Shown here in pieces: positions 3,385 through 11,796 of a stretch of 28,044 bases of DNA. The notes under the pieces are model-generated. The model was not told the origin of the DNA and made no database searches. It saw only the letters and a program-made list of their open reading frames with translations. The position numbers and the translations under genes were made by a program. The stretch covers positions 1 to 28,044 of IMG/VR virus record IMGVR_UViG_3300017783_000152; one strand, written 5' to 3'. Numbering within the stretch: the stretch's first letter is position 1; every line of letters begins with the position of its first letter. Source of the DNA: a virus.

Positions 3385-3558
3385 GTGAAACTTAAAGTTC
3401 GTATGGAGTTGGTTGTAGATTCCGACGACGCCTCGTGGGTCCCTACTGATGGGATCCATGGGGTAGAGGATGAAGCCCAAGAACTTATTATTGAAGCCAT
3501 TGAACAGTGCGTAGATGGTACACGAGTAAAAGCTATAGGTGTTAAAGTATATGATTGA
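3385..3558 (+). CDS. Small GTG-started protein, unknown function
   Basis: GTG 3385 opens a 57-residue frame reading M-KLKVRMELVVDSDD at the start and ending in RVKAIGVKVYD before TGA 3556-3558. It begins one base after the TAA of the preceding gene and overlaps the proposed nrdJ ATG (3551) by 8 nt, so it fills an otherwise empty gap in a tightly packed operon. A GGGG stretch at 3373-3376 could serve as ribosome binding site. The alternating strand-helix-strand pattern (KLKVRMELVV, then ELIIEAIE, then KAIGVKVYD) looks like a small folded protein. The family is unknown to me. Confidence 0.55.
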   Translation: MKLKVRMELVVDSDDASWVPTDGIHGVEDEAQELIIEAIEQCVDGTRVKAIGVKVYD

Positions 3559-4576
3559 TAATTACGGAATGACGGACTACATGAAGTTCATCGCACTATC
3601 TCGGTACGCCAAATGGCTGCCTGAAGAGAAGCGTCGAGAGAACTTTGGAGAGACCGTTGAGCGATACTTGGATAATGTAGTAGCCCCTAAGATTCGAGGG
3701 GTTATGGAGGATTCCTCTGTTTTGATTGAGGATATCCGAAACTATCTTTTGTCTCTTGGGGTCATGCCTTCGATGCGAGCTATGATGACAGCAGGTACTG
3801 CTATGGAGCGGGATAATACTTGCGCGTACAACTGCTCATATCTACCAGTGGATGACCCAAAGGCTTTCGATGAAGCCATGTTTATTCTTATGAACGGTAC
3901 AGGAGTAGGATTCTCAGTCGAGCGGCAGTTTATCTCTAAGCTACCTGAGGTTCCCGAGGAGATCTATGAGAGTAATGATGTCCTGGTTGTTGGAGACAGC
4001 AAGGAAGCATGGGCTAAGGCGTATCGGAAGTTACTGGCATTGCTTTGGTCAGGTGAGATTCCTAAGTGGGATACATCTAAGGTTCGTCCAGCAGGTGCTA
4101 AGCTAAAGACCTTTGGGGGACGTGCTTCTGGTCCTGCCCCTTTGGTTGATCTGTTTAACTTCACAATCAATATCTTCAAGAATGCTAAAGGTCGTAAACT
4201 ATCTTCCTTGGAGTGCCACGACATTATGTGTAAGATCGGGGAGATTGTGGTTGTCGGAGGTGTCCGTCGTTCTGCTATGATCTCTCTGTCAAACCTGAGT
4301 GATGACCGGATGCGTCATGCTAAATCTGGAATGTGGTGGGAAGCCTCAGGTCATCGTGCGTTGGCTAATAACTCCGTGGCTTACACAGAGAACCCTGACA
4401 TGGAGACTTTCCTACGTGAATGGTCTGCTTTGGTAGAGAGCAAGTCAGGGGAGCGAGGTATATTCAATCGTCAAGCCAGTAAACTTCAGGCAGCCAAGAA
4501 TGGTCGGCGTGACCCTAATCACGAGTGGGGCACAAATCCTTGCTCGGAGATTATTTTACGACCTAATCAGTTCTGT
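3551..4576 (+). CDS. nrdJ: Class II (B12-dependent) ribonucleotide reductase, 5' exon
   Basis: This is the first 342 residues of an adenosylcobalamin-dependent ribonucleotide reductase of the monomeric RTPR type, which makes deoxyribonucleotides from ribonucleotides. Visible landmarks are the N-terminal NTCAYNCSY (C91, C95; C95 likely matches Cys119 of Lactobacillus RTPR), NGTGVGFSVE (115-124), GGVRRSAM (236-243) and NPCSEI with the thiyl-radical Cys331. C342 lies exactly 11 residues after C331, the same spacing as RTPR Cys408 and Cys419. Reading into the intron meets TAA directly after C342, so unspliced RNA gives a truncated, inactive protein. Splicing joins TGT (Cys) to AAT (Asn), restoring the conserved FCNLTEV. 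ATG 3551 overlaps the upstream small gene. ATG 3569 is an alternative start. Confidence 0.93.
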
Positions 4577-4863
4577 TAAGGAAGATAGCAGAAGTAAAAC
4601 AGGGTGAATTGCTGGGAAGCCTAAGTCATTTACGATAAGGTAATCAGCAGCCAAGCTTGGGCCGGGAGGCTCTTGAAGGTTCAACGACTAGGACATACCT
4701 TCTAGGACAGAAGATGAAGTCCTTACACTCAAGTGAGTGGAAGCGCCCTGCCCTTATTAATTTAATAATAGGGTGATGATATAGTCTGATCTGTAAGGAA
4801 ACTTGCAGGAGAGTTTGACGGAGACTCCGCCGAAGAAGTAACGCAATTCGGTGAACATAAATG
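4577..4863 (+). ncRNA. Group I self-splicing intron in nrdJ, ORF-less
   Basis: The 287-nt intron follows U4576 and ends in G4863, as group I introns require. P1 pairs exon UUCUGU (4571-4576) with GCAGAA (4588-4593), giving the obligatory U-G wobble (U4576/G4588) at the 5' splice site. P10 pairs AAGAU (4582-4586) with the 3' exon AUCUU (4865-4869). Core elements are all present: P (AATTGCTGGGAAGCC, 4607-4621), Q (AATCAGCAGCCAAGC, 4642-4656), R (around 4679-4692) and S (around 4778-4791). P4 forms between GCTG and CAGC, and P7 between GACTA (4686-4690) and TAGTC (4782-4786). A P8-like hairpin lies near 4751-4773 and a P9-like CCGAA/TTCGG hairpin at 4830-4851. The consensus is group IA-like. It carries no endonuclease gene. 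Confidence 0.95.
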
Positions 4864-5760
4864 AATCTTACAGAAGTGGTGGTACGTGCCACAGACTCCT
4901 TGGAAGACCTGGAGAATAAGGTGGCTATTGCTACAATTCTAGGGACTATTCAGAGTACTTACACGAAGTTCCCGTACCTCCGTAAGGTGTGGCAGAAGAA
5001 TACTGAAGAAGAGCGTCTTCTAGGTGTAAGCCTAACAGGTATCATGGACAATCCTTTGATGACCTTGGATAACCCTGATCTTCCTGGAATGCTTGAAGGT
5101 CTGCGTAACATTGCCGTGGAGACTAATGGTTATTGGGCAGATCTCTTGGGGATTCCTCGATCAACTGCGATTACCTGTGTCAAGCCTAGTGGTACTGTAT
5201 CTCAGCTAGTAGATTCAGCGTCTGGCATCCATACTCGTCACGCCAAGTATTACATTCGGACTGTACGAGGAGACAACAAGGACCCTCTGACACAGTTTAT
5301 GAAGGATCGAGGCATCCCTAATGAGCCTTGTGTTATGAAGCCTGATACTACTACAGTGTTCTCCTTCCCCCAGGCATCACCTAAGGATGCTGTGGTTCGA
5401 GAAGATTCTAATGCGGTAGATCAACTAAAGACTTGGCTTATGTATCAGCGCCATTGGTGTGAGCATAAACCTAGTGTTACTATTAACGTCAAGGATGACG
5501 AGTGGATGGACGTAGGTGCATTTGTCTATAGGAACTTCTCAGAGATGTCTGGGGTATCCTTCTTGCCTTACGACGGAGGTACATATCAACAGGCTCCTTA
5601 TCAAGAGTGCGATGAGAAGACGTACCTAGACGCACTAGAGATTATGCCAGACAGCCTGGATTGGTCTGAGTTGTCTCAGTACGAGCAGGAGGATAATACA
5701 GTATCTATGCAAACTATGGCCTGCTCAGGGGATACTTGTGAGTTAGTGGACTTAACTTAG
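4864..5760 (+). CDS. nrdJ: Class II ribonucleotide reductase, 3' exon
   Basis: This is the last 298 residues of the 640-aa reductase. It starts at AAT (Asn) after the intron and continues NLTEVVVRATDSLEDL. CVKPSGTVSQLVDSASG is the conserved phosphate-binding and barrel region of class II enzymes. The tail CSGDTC gives two cysteines 5 residues apart (about 629 and 634 in the full protein), matching RTPR Cys731 and Cys736, which pass electrons to the active-site disulfide. All five functional cysteines are therefore present once the exons are joined. The ATG at 4861-4863 lies mostly within the intron end and is not a start. The stop is followed 13 nt later by the GTG of the endonuclease VII-like gene. 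Activity needs host or scavenged cobalamin and works without oxygen. Confidence 0.93.
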   Translation, partial: NLTEVVVRATDSLEDLENKVAIATILGTIQSTYTKFPYLRKVWQKNTEEERLLGVSLTGIMDNPLMTLDNPDLPGMLEGLRNIAVETNGYWADLLGIPRSTAITCVKPSGTVSQLVDSASGIHTRHAKYYIRTVRGDNKDPLTQFMKDRGIPNEPCVMKPDTTTVFSFPQASPKDAVVREDSNAVDQLKTWLMYQRHWCEHKPSVTINVKDDEWMDVGAFVYRNFSEMSGVSFLPYDGGTYQQAPYQECDEKTYLDALEIMPDSLDWSELSQYEQEDNTVSMQTMACSGDTCELVDLT

Positions 5761-5773
5761 AAGGGACTTAAGA

Positions 5774-6211
5774 GTGCTAGATAAACCTAAGCAGCTTGAG
5801 TTTTTCGTAGAGCACGAGGATCTAGGGGCAGGTGAAGGTAAGGTATGCAGTAAGTGTGAGCACTACCTTCCTTTATCTGCTTTCTCCTTCACTAGCGGAG
5901 GTAACTATCTTAGGGCCGAGTGTCGTAAGTGCAACCAAGAACTTACTAAGGTTCGTCAGGAGTTACGAAAGAAACATGAGTATCCACCAGAAGATTATAG
6001 ATGTCCTGTCTGCAATGGTAATGCGGAAGAAGTCAAAGGCAAAGGGAACACCCGTAACGGGCCTTGGGTACTCGACCATTGTCACGAAACACAGAGGTTC
6101 CGGGGATGGCTTTGTCATAAATGCAATAGGGCCTTGGGAGGGTTCGACGACAGTAAAGAAATCTTACAACGCGCAATAAATTATCTTAAAGGAATTACGA
6201 ATGGAAGTTAA
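5774..6211 (+). CDS. Endonuclease VII-like HNH nuclease, possibly a free-standing homing endonuclease
   Basis: This 145-aa protein has two zinc-binding halves. The N-terminal one uses C25, C28, C50 and C53. The C-terminal one uses C77, C80, C114 and C117 around DHCHETQRFRGWLC (101-114) and CNRALGG, which is the recombination endonuclease VII signature (T4 gp49 family) with a His-metal finger. It starts at GTG 5774 behind AAGGGA (5761-5766), 13 nt after the nrdJ stop, and overlaps thyX by 11 nt. Gp49 itself resolves branched DNA, but this phage already has T7-type endonuclease I. Small proteins of this type with an extra N-terminal zinc ribbon are often mobile site-specific nucleases. Its place directly behind the intron-bearing gene suggests a homing role. 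Which role applies is not settled by the sequence. Confidence 0.85.
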   Translation: MLDKPKQLEFFVEHEDLGAGEGKVCSKCEHYLPLSAFSFTSGGNYLRAECRKCNQELTKVRQELRKKHEYPPEDYRCPVCNGNAEEVKGKGNTRNGPWVLDHCHETQRFRGWLCHKCNRALGGFDDSKEILQRAINYLKGITNGS

Positions 6212-7061
6212 ACTGATTGACCATATGGGTTCTGACTTGTCTGTGGTTAATTCTGCAAGAGTTAGCTTTAACAAAGATTCATTTAAATACTCAGACCTAT
6301 ATATTGAGGTGGAAGAGGGGGCAGAGATCCCTGATTGGTTCAAAGATATTTCTTCGGAAAGTGATCTTAATAAAGCCTTAGCGGCTAATAACATTAAGAT
6401 ATACGACGAGAGTACTAATGAGATATACCACGACAGTACTAAAAGTATTTTTAGAAGAGTACGAGATACAGAAAAAGTAAAAGTATTCAAACGTAAAGGA
6501 TTTTCGACGGAGGACAAGAAACTAATTAAGTACCTAGCTACACACAATCATTTTACTCCCTTTACGCATTGTACTATTACGCTACGAGAAAAAGTACCCA
6601 TCTTTGTAGCTAGGCAGCGATTTAAGCATCAGATTGGATTCTCGTATAATGAAGTTAGCCGACGATATGTAGATTACGAGCCTGAGTTTTATACTCCTGA
6701 AGAGTGGCGAGCAAAGGCAGACAATAAGAAACAAGGGTCTGAAGAGGGTACTGATATTGATATTAACCCAGAAGGTTTTGTAATAGATGTGTATCAGCAA
6801 TCAATCTCTCGTGCTATGTGGACCTACGAGGATCTCCTAAGACGTGGAGTGTGTCCCGAGCAGGCCCGGATGGTACTGCCGCAGTCTACGTATACTGAAT
6901 ATTGGGTGACAGGCTCCTTAGCAGCTTGGGCAAGAGCCTACAACTTGAGGAGTAAACCGGACGCCCAGAAAGAGATTAGAGACTTAGCCTCTATGTGGAA
7001 TGATATACTATCTGAATTATACCCTTATAGCTGGAAGGAGCTTACACAAAATGAAGACTAA
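6201..7061 (+). CDS. thyX: FAD-dependent thymidylate synthase ThyX
   Basis: This 286-aa enzyme converts dUMP to dTMP using methylenetetrahydrofolate, NADPH and FAD. The ThyX motif region is ARQRFKHQIGFSYNEVSRRY (137-156). The classic RHR is KHQ here, while the S-x-NE-x-S-x-RY part (148-156) is intact. Upstream, LATHNHFTPFTH (112-123) and, near the end, ARMVLPQSTYTEYWVTGSL are typical. About 70 residues between RVSF (20-23) and KKLIKYL (106-112) are longer than in ordinary ThyX proteins and include a charged, Ser/Asp/Glu-rich stretch. ATG 6201 overlaps the stop of the endonuclease gene. With nrdJ and the dNTP hydrolase it forms a nucleotide-supply module. The next gene starts inside its last codons. 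Confidence 0.93.
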   Translation: MEVKLIDHMGSDLSVVNSARVSFNKDSFKYSDLYIEVEEGAEIPDWFKDISSESDLNKALAANNIKIYDESTNEIYHDSTKSIFRRVRDTEKVKVFKRKGFSTEDKKLIKYLATHNHFTPFTHCTITLREKVPIFVARQRFKHQIGFSYNEVSRRYVDYEPEFYTPEEWRAKADNKKQGSEEGTDIDINPEGFVIDVYQQSISRAMWTYEDLLRRGVCPEQARMVLPQSTYTEYWVTGSLAAWARAYNLRSKPDAQKEIRDLASMWNDILSELYPYSWKELTQNED

Positions 7062-7914: not shown

Positions 7915-10900
7915 TTATTGTCCTAGCTGTGCTGCTCTCCTAGTAAACTGCAAGAGGTCTGCTTTAACACCTCTCTCCTGAGCTTCATAGACCTTCTTAA
8001 CTATCTCCATACTGGTAGAAAGTCTCTCGGCATACTCAGGAGACTCTTTCTCATCTTGGTATTTTAGCAGAATGTCTAAGCCTTCTATGCCTGATTTTCT
8101 AAGGTAATTGATGGCTTTAGCTCTTTTAGCAGAAGGAATATCCTTGTACTTCTTAAATTCAGCCAATACAGGGAACTCATTTTCTAGCATAGTCTTGGTA
8201 ATGTCTTTGAGATTGGTATGAGTTTTTGATCCCCTGATCCTATTAACTTTATCTAGGGGCTTAAGGAGGTTACTAGGAACAGCAGATCTATTGGACCCTC
8301 GGTAGTAGGATCGTAGCCTGTCCCGCTTATCCTTATCAGACATATTTTTATATTCTTCTGAGCTAATCTCCTGTAGTACCAAGTCCCCTTCTGCAATAGC
8401 TAACAACCCATTAGCTATATTATCGTATTCAGGAGAGTTAGATCGGAACTCTACAATTCTCTTATCCATACCGAGGTTATTGATCTCCTTCATAACTGGT
8501 CCCTTATTTCGAGACACGTTAAAGCCGATAACCTGCTTAGTAATAGGAAGTAAAGGACCTTTAGCTACACCCACTTGAGTCGGCATATACTTCTCAGGAA
8601 CGTCTGAGAACACGTAAGGTTCTGCGGGAGTTCCTTGGATCAACGACTTAGCAAATTCATCAATCGCCGAAGACATAAAGGGATTAAACTCTGCAAACTC
8701 AGAACCTAAGACACCCTTCTGCTGCCTACGGTCTGTAAACTCTCGTGATTCACCGTCTCCAACAGTTTTAATAACATCCTGAATAGGTCTTAGGGGAGTC
8801 GTAAACGGGGCAGCAACATGACCTAACATGGACCCTACTACGGCCCCTAGTTTCTCAAACGCTTCAGGATCAGAGTCCCCATCTGTCATCTGGTAGAAAG
8901 TGTCAGATATTGTGTCAATAACTCGGCCTGGACTCCCTCGTAACGAAGGTCCTCCTAGAAACTCCCCTAAATCCCTAGAAAAAGTTTCTCTGGCAGGTTT
9001 ACCTTTAATAAACATTTCAGCCGTGTCTGCTAAAAACATATATGCAGACAAAGGAAACATAGGCTTAGTATCCACTATACTTCCGTCTTTTCCTTCCAAG
9101 CCGTATATAGTACCATCGCCAGAGTATTGCTTTAACGCATACGCCGCCGATAGAAGAGCAAGACCTTCAGCAGTCTCTGCTACACCTCTAGATACTTCTT
9201 CAAGGGCCTTTTCCCTGCCTAGAAACTCTTTAGTTATAATATCAGCTTTACCCTCAAGTTCAGCTATACGGGCTTTTACTTGCGCTTTACCTTCTGCTCC
9301 TTTAGGTTTACTCCCAAGAAGTTCAGTCATTTCAGCACTTATTTCACTGAGTTCAGCACGTTTTTCTAGGGCGTCTTTTGCACCTTTCTTTTTTGCTGCT
9401 CGTACTTTTACAGCCCCTTTACCTGCTTTTATGATACCAAGACCGGACCTATTAACAGTGTACACCAAGGCGTTAATAAGAAAATTCGGGAAAGGCATAA
9501 CAAGCTTAATAGCGGGATAACTATTGAGAAATCTCTGAAGATTATTGATGCCTGTACTAAAAATAGGGAGATCGTCCCCTGCTCTGCGAGATTGATAAGT
9601 TAGTCTATACGCTGCCTGAATACTTTTAGACACCATCTCATCGTCTATCAAGTCAAATCGGTTGCCTCGGATAACCTTCTCAATAGAGTCAAATTTGTCT
9701 ACGTCAGCTTTAGACATAGCACCTCTATTACGTTTTAGCTTTACTTGGTTGTCTAGTTCCGCCATAAAGCCCGCCGTTTTAAAGGCCCTATCTTGAATTG
9801 AGTTTAACGTGTTGAATATGCGAGAGGCTTTGTTGAATGCTTTTCCGACTATACTGTCAGGCTCTCGTCCTAATTGGTCGTCAAATACTTGAAAGATTAA
9901 ACGCTCTACCTCATCATATTTACCTGCAAGTATTTTAGCTAAGTCTTCAGTAGACGTAGAGTCCCTCAAAGCTTTCCATATACCTAAAGTGTCTTTACTG
10001 GATAACTGTTCAGGTCTGGTATATCCTAGAATATCCCCAGAGGTTTTAGTGATATAGTTGTTAAGAGCAGTATACCCAGCCTCCCCCGGAAGTCGGGCTA
10101 GAGAGCCGAGGACGTTTCGAGCCGTAGTGGCAGGTTGAGTAACCATGAAAGAACGCCAGATATCCACACCTACTCCGAGACGACCTGCGGCCTTACGTTC
10201 TTCTGCGCGTTGCTGAGATATAACACGAAGTTTAGAGCGCATCTCAGGCGTCTTTAGGACATCCTCAGCCTTTCCTGCGGTAACGCCTAATGCTTCCCCA
10301 GGACTTGCTAGACGTGCCAACATACTTGGGGAGATCTTTTGAGACTGAACAAGTTTAGTACCTGCTAGGCTGGCGTCTGCGCGAATGAAGTCGGCTAAGT
10401 CAGATAGCTCAATGTTATTAGACGCTAAGGATTTTACAAGATCCTCAGGAAGGTCCTCGGGATTAACCCCGTCAAGGATGGAGGCTCCTATTTCTGTAGT
10501 ACGAGAGCGTAAGTCTACTTTACGAGATAGGCTGGGGTCCTTGACTACTAGGTCTTGAAGAGTGGAGTACACTCTGCTGATCATGTCTGTGTCAGTCAAA
10601 ACCTCAAACATCTGACGAGTTTCTTCTTCAGAGATTCCGGCTTCTTTTGCCTTGTTCTTGAAGAAGTCTTTACCTTGTCTGACCTTATCTTGATCGAAGA
10701 ACTTTCCGCTTTCTTTAATGTACCTTTTAATCTCATTATCAGCCTCAACTGCCGTAAGAGCCTTAAGGTCTTTAATGTCGTAGTCAATTTCTTTAACGGA
10801 AGGTATATTAGGATCTTTGTTGACGGCGGAGTCCTTAGCTAAGTATCTTACCGTTACCTTACCGTCAACCTGATTGTTCCGAATAAATCCTACATCATCA

Positions 10901-11796
10901 TAGTCTTTTGAAATGCTCTCAGGAGTATCAATAGCTTTTACATAAATACCTTCAGTATTTAAGTCCTTTACCTCATCTACTGCTTCTGCTAGTGTGTTGG
11001 TACTTCCTGCCTTTCCTTGAGTTGTAGACTTCTCAAAGTTCTCTTGCATCTCCTTGATAACGTCTTTGGACTTGGGCCCAGACTTACCTAGAATAGCTTG
11101 ACCAGCAGCTCCGAAGGCTCCTGCTGTTCCTGAACGAATAGCCACGGAAGTAGCGAGATCTCCCCAGTCAAATCCTTTGCGTAGCTGCATCTCTTGCTCA
11201 GCTTCTTGTAGCTCAGCTTCTTGGTAAGTAGCAATAGGGGCTTCTACGGCAGCACCTACAGCAGCAGAGCGAGCTACCTTATTTGCCAGGGCTTTATTTA
11301 CAAATGTCTTAATGGCCGTCCGAGATAGTCCTGTTGCACCTGCTTTAAGGGCTGCACCAGCACCTGCTCCGATACCTGTAGCACCTAAAATAGTAGCGGC
11401 GATGTTCACAGGATCAGTAATAGAGTAGAGTGCATATTGACCTACTGCGGCGGCTTTGTCTCCTAGTGAAGTGTTATCTCCAAATACTTGATCAACCTCA
11501 GTGTCAATGGTATGGTATAGTTTCCCTAATTTCTTTAGGTACTCCTGGCTTTCTTTGTCCTCCGGTAGGTCTTCCAGATAATTTACGAAGCGAGAAGTGC
11601 CGTAAGTGTTTGTATGGATAAACCTGTACTCAGACATAAATTCGTCTAGGTACTCTTCAGCAGTGTCAAAAGATTGCCCTCTATCTCCATAGAACTTTAT
11701 TAAGGCGTTTATATGGTCATCGTTATCTTTAAGGCTGTAAAGAGATACTTCTTTATCTTTGTTCTCTGTACCTTCTTCTTCTTTTATTGTAGCCAT
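7915..11796 (-). CDS. Large internal virion (ejection) protein
   Basis: This 1293-aa protein is by far the largest here, close to T7 gp16 (1318 aa), and lies at the end of the structural operon where T7-like phages keep internal core proteins. The N-terminal 100 residues are charged. Residues about 117-235 are Gly/Ala-rich and hydrophobic (ILGATGIGAGAGAALKAG), suited to membrane insertion on DNA injection. A central stretch has DIWRSFMVTQPATTARNVLG, and another hydrophobic region contains LVMPFPNFLINALVYTVNR. I see no lytic transglycosylase motif like that at the gp16 N-terminus. The expected role is a core protein ejected into the cell envelope to form the DNA channel. This rests on size, place and composition, not on sequence match. 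Confidence 0.65.
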   Translation of the reverse strand: MATIKEEEGTENKDKEVSLYSLKDNDDHINALIKFYGDRGQSFDTAEEYLDEFMSEYRFIHTNTYGTSRFVNYLEDLPEDKESQEYLKKLGKLYHTIDTEVDQVFGDNTSLGDKAAAVGQYALYSITDPVNIAATILGATGIGAGAGAALKAGATGLSRTAIKTFVNKALANKVARSAAVGAAVEAPIATYQEAELQEAEQEMQLRKGFDWGDLATSVAIRSGTAGAFGAAGQAILGKSGPKSKDVIKEMQENFEKSTTQGKAGSTNTLAEAVDEVKDLNTEGIYVKAIDTPESISKDYDDVGFIRNNQVDGKVTVRYLAKDSAVNKDPNIPSVKEIDYDIKDLKALTAVEADNEIKRYIKESGKFFDQDKVRQGKDFFKNKAKEAGISEEETRQMFEVLTDTDMISRVYSTLQDLVVKDPSLSRKVDLRSRTTEIGASILDGVNPEDLPEDLVKSLASNNIELSDLADFIRADASLAGTKLVQSQKISPSMLARLASPGEALGVTAGKAEDVLKTPEMRSKLRVISQQRAEERKAAGRLGVGVDIWRSFMVTQPATTARNVLGSLARLPGEAGYTALNNYITKTSGDILGYTRPEQLSSKDTLGIWKALRDSTSTEDLAKILAGKYDEVERLIFQVFDDQLGREPDSIVGKAFNKASRIFNTLNSIQDRAFKTAGFMAELDNQVKLKRNRGAMSKADVDKFDSIEKVIRGNRFDLIDDEMVSKSIQAAYRLTYQSRRAGDDLPIFSTGINNLQRFLNSYPAIKLVMPFPNFLINALVYTVNRSGLGIIKAGKGAVKVRAAKKKGAKDALEKRAELSEISAEMTELLGSKPKGAEGKAQVKARIAELEGKADIITKEFLGREKALEEVSRGVAETAEGLALLSAAYALKQYSGDGTIYGLEGKDGSIVDTKPMFPLSAYMFLADTAEMFIKGKPARETFSRDLGEFLGGPSLRGSPGRVIDTISDTFYQMTDGDSDPEAFEKLGAVVGSMLGHVAAPFTTPLRPIQDVIKTVGDGESREFTDRRQQKGVLGSEFAEFNPFMSSAIDEFAKSLIQGTPAEPYVFSDVPEKYMPTQVGVAKGPLLPITKQVIGFNVSRNKGPVMKEINNLGMDKRIVEFRSNSPEYDNIANGLLAIAEGDLVLQEISSEEYKNMSDKDKRDRLRSYYRGSNRSAVPSNLLKPLDKVNRIRGSKTHTNLKDITKTMLENEFPVLAEFKKYKDIPSAKRAKAINYLRKSGIEGLDILLKYQDEKESPEYAERLSTSMEIVKKVYEAQERGVKADLLQFTRRAAQLGQ

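Follow-up and report, generated by a model that had tools for sequence, protein, structure and literature searches.

The class II ribonucleotide reductase gene (nrdJ) of the virus considered here is broken into two open reading frames (3539-4579 and 4861-5760), and this raises the question of whether the interruption is a group I intron that can still splice, and how an intron without a reading frame of its own came to this position. The window analysed is the whole 28,044-base virus record; the phage with the nrdJ intron is described as marine-type, and its major capsid protein is closest to those of HMO-2011-type phages. A 1293-aa protein encoded on the minus strand (7915-11796), for which no Pfam or PHROG match was obtained, borders metabolic and structural genes.

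Both reading frames are parts of a single class II reductase. Exon 1 runs on the plus strand from 3539 (GTG) or 3551 (ATG) to 4576, exon 2 on the same strand from 4864 to 5760, starting with the codon AAT and containing the C-terminal CSGDTC cysteine pair. Joining 3539-4576 to 4864-5760 gives an unbroken product of 645 aa (640 aa from the ATG at 3551) in phase, reading ...NPCSEIILRPNQFC up to the junction and NLTEV... beyond it. The joined product aligns with the Lactobacillus leichmannii ribonucleoside triphosphate reductase RTPR (1L1L) at E 7e-54. In this alignment the final exon-1 codon corresponds to RTPR Cys419, directly followed by the intron, the cysteine of NPCSE, 11 residues before the end of exon 1, corresponds to Cys408, and the equivalents of C119, C408, C419, C731, C736 and E410 are all kept. 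A preliminary description had proposed two in-phase parts of one reductase, 287 nt apart, with FCNLTEV restored and RTPR-type cysteine spacing after splicing; the gapless joined exons bear this out. Among the NCBIfam families, RTPR (TIGR02505) scores highest by a wide margin, but its 314.9 bits lie under the curated cut-off of 340.05, and we therefore name the product RTPR-like and assign it to an RTPR-like phage branch of the class II reductases.

The 287 nt between the exons (4577-4863, plus strand) are a group I intron without an open reading frame, with ends correct to the base. The Rfam group I model RF00028 matches 4555-4808 over its full length with 92.1 bits (E 1e-22; gathering score 50). 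The covariance search suggested beforehand thus scores the segment as an intron, and the exact ends claimed at that time are upheld by this match, by the exon junction and by the same ends in about 38 homologues. The 5' end is an in-frame UAA and the 3' end is G4863; every intron in the set at this site likewise has G as its last base. All elements that had been named, namely P1 with its U-G wobble, P10, the core and the terminal G, could be located, with helices assigned by hand and by alignment. P1 is formed by the exon sequence UUCUGU (4571-4576) and the internal guide GCAGAA (4588-4593), with the wobble U4576.G4588 at the 5' splice site, and P10 by AAGAU (4582-4586) and the 3'-exon sequence AUCUU (4865-4869). 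P3 (4600-4606/4744-4750) is followed by P4 (4610-4615/4644-4649) and P5 (4619-4622/4638-4641), the latter two recovered by the Rfam match as well as by an alignment of 33 related introns, and by P6 (4651-4652/4678-4679) with P6a (4659-4663/4668-4672). The guanosine-binding helix P7 pairs GACUA (4686-4690) with UAGUC (4782-4786). The base of P8 (4751-4754/4770-4773, element 4751-4773) is again found by both Rfam match and alignment, and P9 occupies 4791-4797/4802-4808. Two hairpins complete the structure: P9.1, GAGUUU (4811-4816) with AGACUC (4822-4827) around the loop GACGG, and P9.2 (4828-4853, CGCCGAA/UUCGGUG), whose covarying stem is retained in copies with and without a reading frame. According to the alignment, P7.1 (4691-4694/4719-4722) and P7.2 (4726-4730/4735-4739) are both present between P3 and P7 and show compensatory changes, which places the intron in subgroup IA, with IA1 and IA2 taken together. 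The P7.2 motif occurs in at least 120 stretches of viral contigs. The folding energy of the intron corresponds to z = -3.3.

Pairing constraint was assessed for 54 named pairs in the 33-intron alignment, where 94.9% of the cells hold standard pairs. Changes on both sides were found in 33 of the 54 pairs, where shuffles gave 19 and slid controls no more than 16, and the covariation score was 0.329 as against 0.107 (shuffled) and at most 0.083 (slid). The splice-site U.G pair and P7 do not vary in any of the 33 rows. Compensatory changes are seen in P3 (both sides changed in 4/6 pairs), P4, P7.1, P7.2 and P9 (6/7 pairs), while P8 is the weakest helix. The intron strand of P10 shifts together with synonymous changes in the 3'-exon Asn-Leu codons of the relatives: AGAU faces AAUCU, AAGU or AGUU faces AACUU, and AAAU or AAUU faces AAUUU. 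Since this amounts to a constraint on exon joining, it favours real splicing. The codon of the cysteine at the site is TGT in 42 and TGC in 39 intronless genes; in the intron-bearing genes it is TGT in 41 of 41, most of which were found with a pattern demanding TGT, although the 12 first found in other ways have it as well. This uniformity is explained by the U.G pair of P1, which needs TGT.

The intron is not confined to the window. A search with a junction pattern and the P7.2 motif, whose hits were then compared with the spliced protein, returned about 38 further viral nrdJ loci, some of them near-duplicates, with an intron at the identical base; a looser 5'-end pattern matched mainly by chance and gave way to a tighter one. 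In nearly all copies the P9.1 loop contains an HNH-type reading frame of about 150 aa that matches PHROG endonuclease, Endo VII and HNH families, and introns with this reading frame measure 675-793 nt. Most of it is gone from the 391-nt introns of three loci (L120, L351 and L353). The window intron has no reading frame inside and gave no tblastn match to the HNH-type one of its relatives; an endonuclease-type reading frame of its own, as expected of a mobile intron, is thus absent here and present there. The preliminary description was right about the missing reading frame, but the intron is no isolated curiosity, given the many, nearly always HNH-bearing copies at the same site. When bacterial and archaeal genomes were searched with the same-site pattern, a single true nrdJ match emerged, on a Dehalococcoidia MAG contig of probable viral origin, and no further relative. 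Two loci left out of the count (L213 and L246) carry a related HNH-bearing intron whose insertion point lies 6 nt further downstream and whose P1 matches the exon sequence there; it has apparently moved to the neighbouring site. Some inserts upstream of the HNH-type reading frame show sigma-70-like promoter letters (TTGAC, 17 nt, then TATAAT or TATATA), in the P6 region in L163, L301 and L105 and after P9 in L195, L323, L334 and L345, as if the reading frame had its own promoter.

In a protein tree of 83 intronless and 34 intron-bearing nrdJ genes the intron is distributed patchily, with at least 13 changes between presence and absence. Among Rhizobium phages, N3_13 has the intron and N3_19 and I3_11 lack it; between N3_13 and N3_19 the flanks are 94 and 98% identical and precisely the 703-nt intron is missing. 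An equivalent clean empty site is seen in metagenomic viruses on comparison of L333 and L326 with L055. The HNH-type protein encoded in the P9.1 loop would act as an endonuclease and spread the family.

Taken together, we favour, at a probability of roughly 93%, a mobile intron specific for this nrdJ site that is spread by its HNH-type endonuclease, the window copy having lost the reading frame by deletion so that it should splice but cannot home by itself. Anatomy, junction, covariation, same-site family, empty sites and phylogenetic nesting are the parts of this model computed here; splicing is predicted from them at the level of sequence. Within the nrdJ transcript the last exon-1 bases, UUCUGU, would pair with the internal guide, placing U.G at the cut, an external guanosine bound in P7 would attack after U4576, and exon 1 would then attack behind the terminal G4863, which P10 and P9.2 would hold in place. 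The spliced mRNA would encode the complete reductase. Unspliced RNA would meet the UAA immediately and could yield only a protein truncated after Cys419.

Whether the gene needs splicing at all may be asked, because an ATG at the end of the intron (4861-4863) opens the exon-2 reading frame, and split reductases working without splicing are known: NrdA of Aeromonas phage Aeh1 is reported to consist of two polypeptides that assemble (PMC3653736). Such a two-part enzyme is hardly credible for the window, where an intact ribozyme core is kept under pairing constraint, P10 covaries with the 3' exon, and several distant relatives end their intron in CTG, TTG or ACG instead of ATG. Separate translation of a C-terminal piece from this ATG is a formal but improbable alternative. 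The deletion itself can be questioned too. Invasion of introns by HNH genes is a known process, and the wider family has many short-form members: a short pattern from P7 to the 3' end matches 55 viral contigs, in other phage genes. The window intron might thus be ancestrally without a reading frame, and the HNH-type gene would have arrived in the P9.1 loop afterwards, in other copies. This order of events is unlikely, as none of the 55 short forms sits at the nrdJ site, partial deletions occur nearby in the 391-nt alleles, and the window copy is nested in the intron tree inside a clade whose members bear homologous reading frames in the same loop. Its exact sister is unsure because branch support near it is moderate (about 80-93). 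Further, the window P9.1 loop region, TTTG followed by ACGGAGACTCC, equals the start plus the end of the region in which L276, L327 and others have the reading frame, and ACGG is part of the last codons there, even if this possible remnant is just a few unpaired bases. With the nesting and the retained letters, loss is the simplest history and most likely what happened, by a deletion that would have left P9.1 and P9.2 intact; as these hairpins remain and the reading frame is gone, the intron should still splice, with homing of its own impossible.

A free-standing Endo VII-like nuclease gene (5774-6211, plus strand; PF02945) begins 13 nt downstream of nrdJ and could be thought to take over the missing function. 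In cyanophage S-PM2 the psbA intron has F-CphI, an Endo VII-type homing enzyme, encoded next to it (PMC6083498), and the arrangement is alike: an intron-bearing gene, here with an intron lacking a reading frame, then an Endo VII-type nuclease gene. As in F-CphI, it is the C-terminal part of the protein that has the Endo VII-type motif. The nuclease would cut intronless nrdJ and thereby spread the intron by collaborative homing. Unlike the psbA pair, however, nuclease gene and nrdJ intron do not co-occur. Of 68 intronless loci, 13 have an Endo VII-like gene in the 800 nt that follow nrdJ; of the 30 other intron-bearing loci, none has one, and a nuclease that cuts the empty site is not expected beside an empty site. 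These counts do not support a pair of the F-CphI type, with the nuclease linked to intron-bearing targets. Since gene and intron do not travel together, collaborative homing is very unlikely and a role as Holliday-junction resolvase is the more likely function; the gene probably stands outside the intron system. It would be a long shot that the nuclease was adopted after loss of the HNH-type reading frame and cuts empty nrdJ genes of co-infecting phages, leaving the intron mobile in trans; if true, this would be a second collaborative-homing system.

Other inserts occur in phage nrdJ. The split nrdJ of Roseobacter phage CRP-118 (OR420741.1, L004) was considered as a case of the same intron and rejected, its far shorter insert (4789-4960) lying at the Cys408 codon. 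This second type of insert, also present in L351, L353 and L413-L419, measures 172-175 nt and follows the first base of that codon. In two divergent copies P1 with U.G, P3, P5, P7, P8 and P9 can be paired, with 6 both-side changes between them, and the exons rejoin in frame. Rfam gave no match to it, even at E 1. It resembles a group I intron of very small size and may be one of the smallest in nature. In L351, L353 and L120/L417 both nrdJ introns flank a 35-nt micro-exon encoding Cys408 to Cys419. The nrdJ gene of L242, on the minus strand, contains two group I introns scored by Rfam (6333-6559 and 5205-5432), one near the Cys419 site and another near codon 445.

According to the literature, group I introns interrupt phage reductase genes in T4 (nrdB and nrdD), Twort (nrdE) and SPbeta (nrdE/nrdF), some near active-site codons and some, not all, with endonuclease reading frames (PMC3653736). 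The 2013 survey lists intron cases for nrdA, nrdB, nrdD, nrdE and nrdF, in line with the earlier remark that such introns are known in some phages, and just two split nrdJ genes, neither described as an intron case (PMC3653736). The window intron shares the phage reductase setting with those of T4, Twort and SPbeta but lies in a class II instead of a class I or III gene and at another site. Group I introns with Endo VII/HNH reading frames are also known from DNA polymerase genes of LUZ24 and Pf-WMP3 (PMC6083498, PMC3428280), which differ in gene, site and reading frames; similarity of the core reaches DNA polymerase introns of many enterophages. Literature searches outside the subscription journals turned up no paper that describes a group I intron in the nrdJ gene of a phage. 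The closest counterpart is in Rhizobium phage RHph_N3_13 (MN988507.1), with the same insertion base and internal guide and a homologous core, P9.2 and 3' end, but 703 nt long with a 148-aa HNH-type reading frame in P9.1, in contrast to 287 nt without one. Its annotation gives merely a split gene and a 'Srd' ORF, and by our reading this record already contains an unrecognised nrdJ group I intron.

Class II nrdJ joins the reductase genes targeted by phage group I introns, here at a catalytic-cysteine codon. The family spans all stages from the full reading frame over its partial deletion and the form without one to the empty site. Since both intron-bearing and intronless Rhizobium phages are in culture, homing and its cost can be tested directly.
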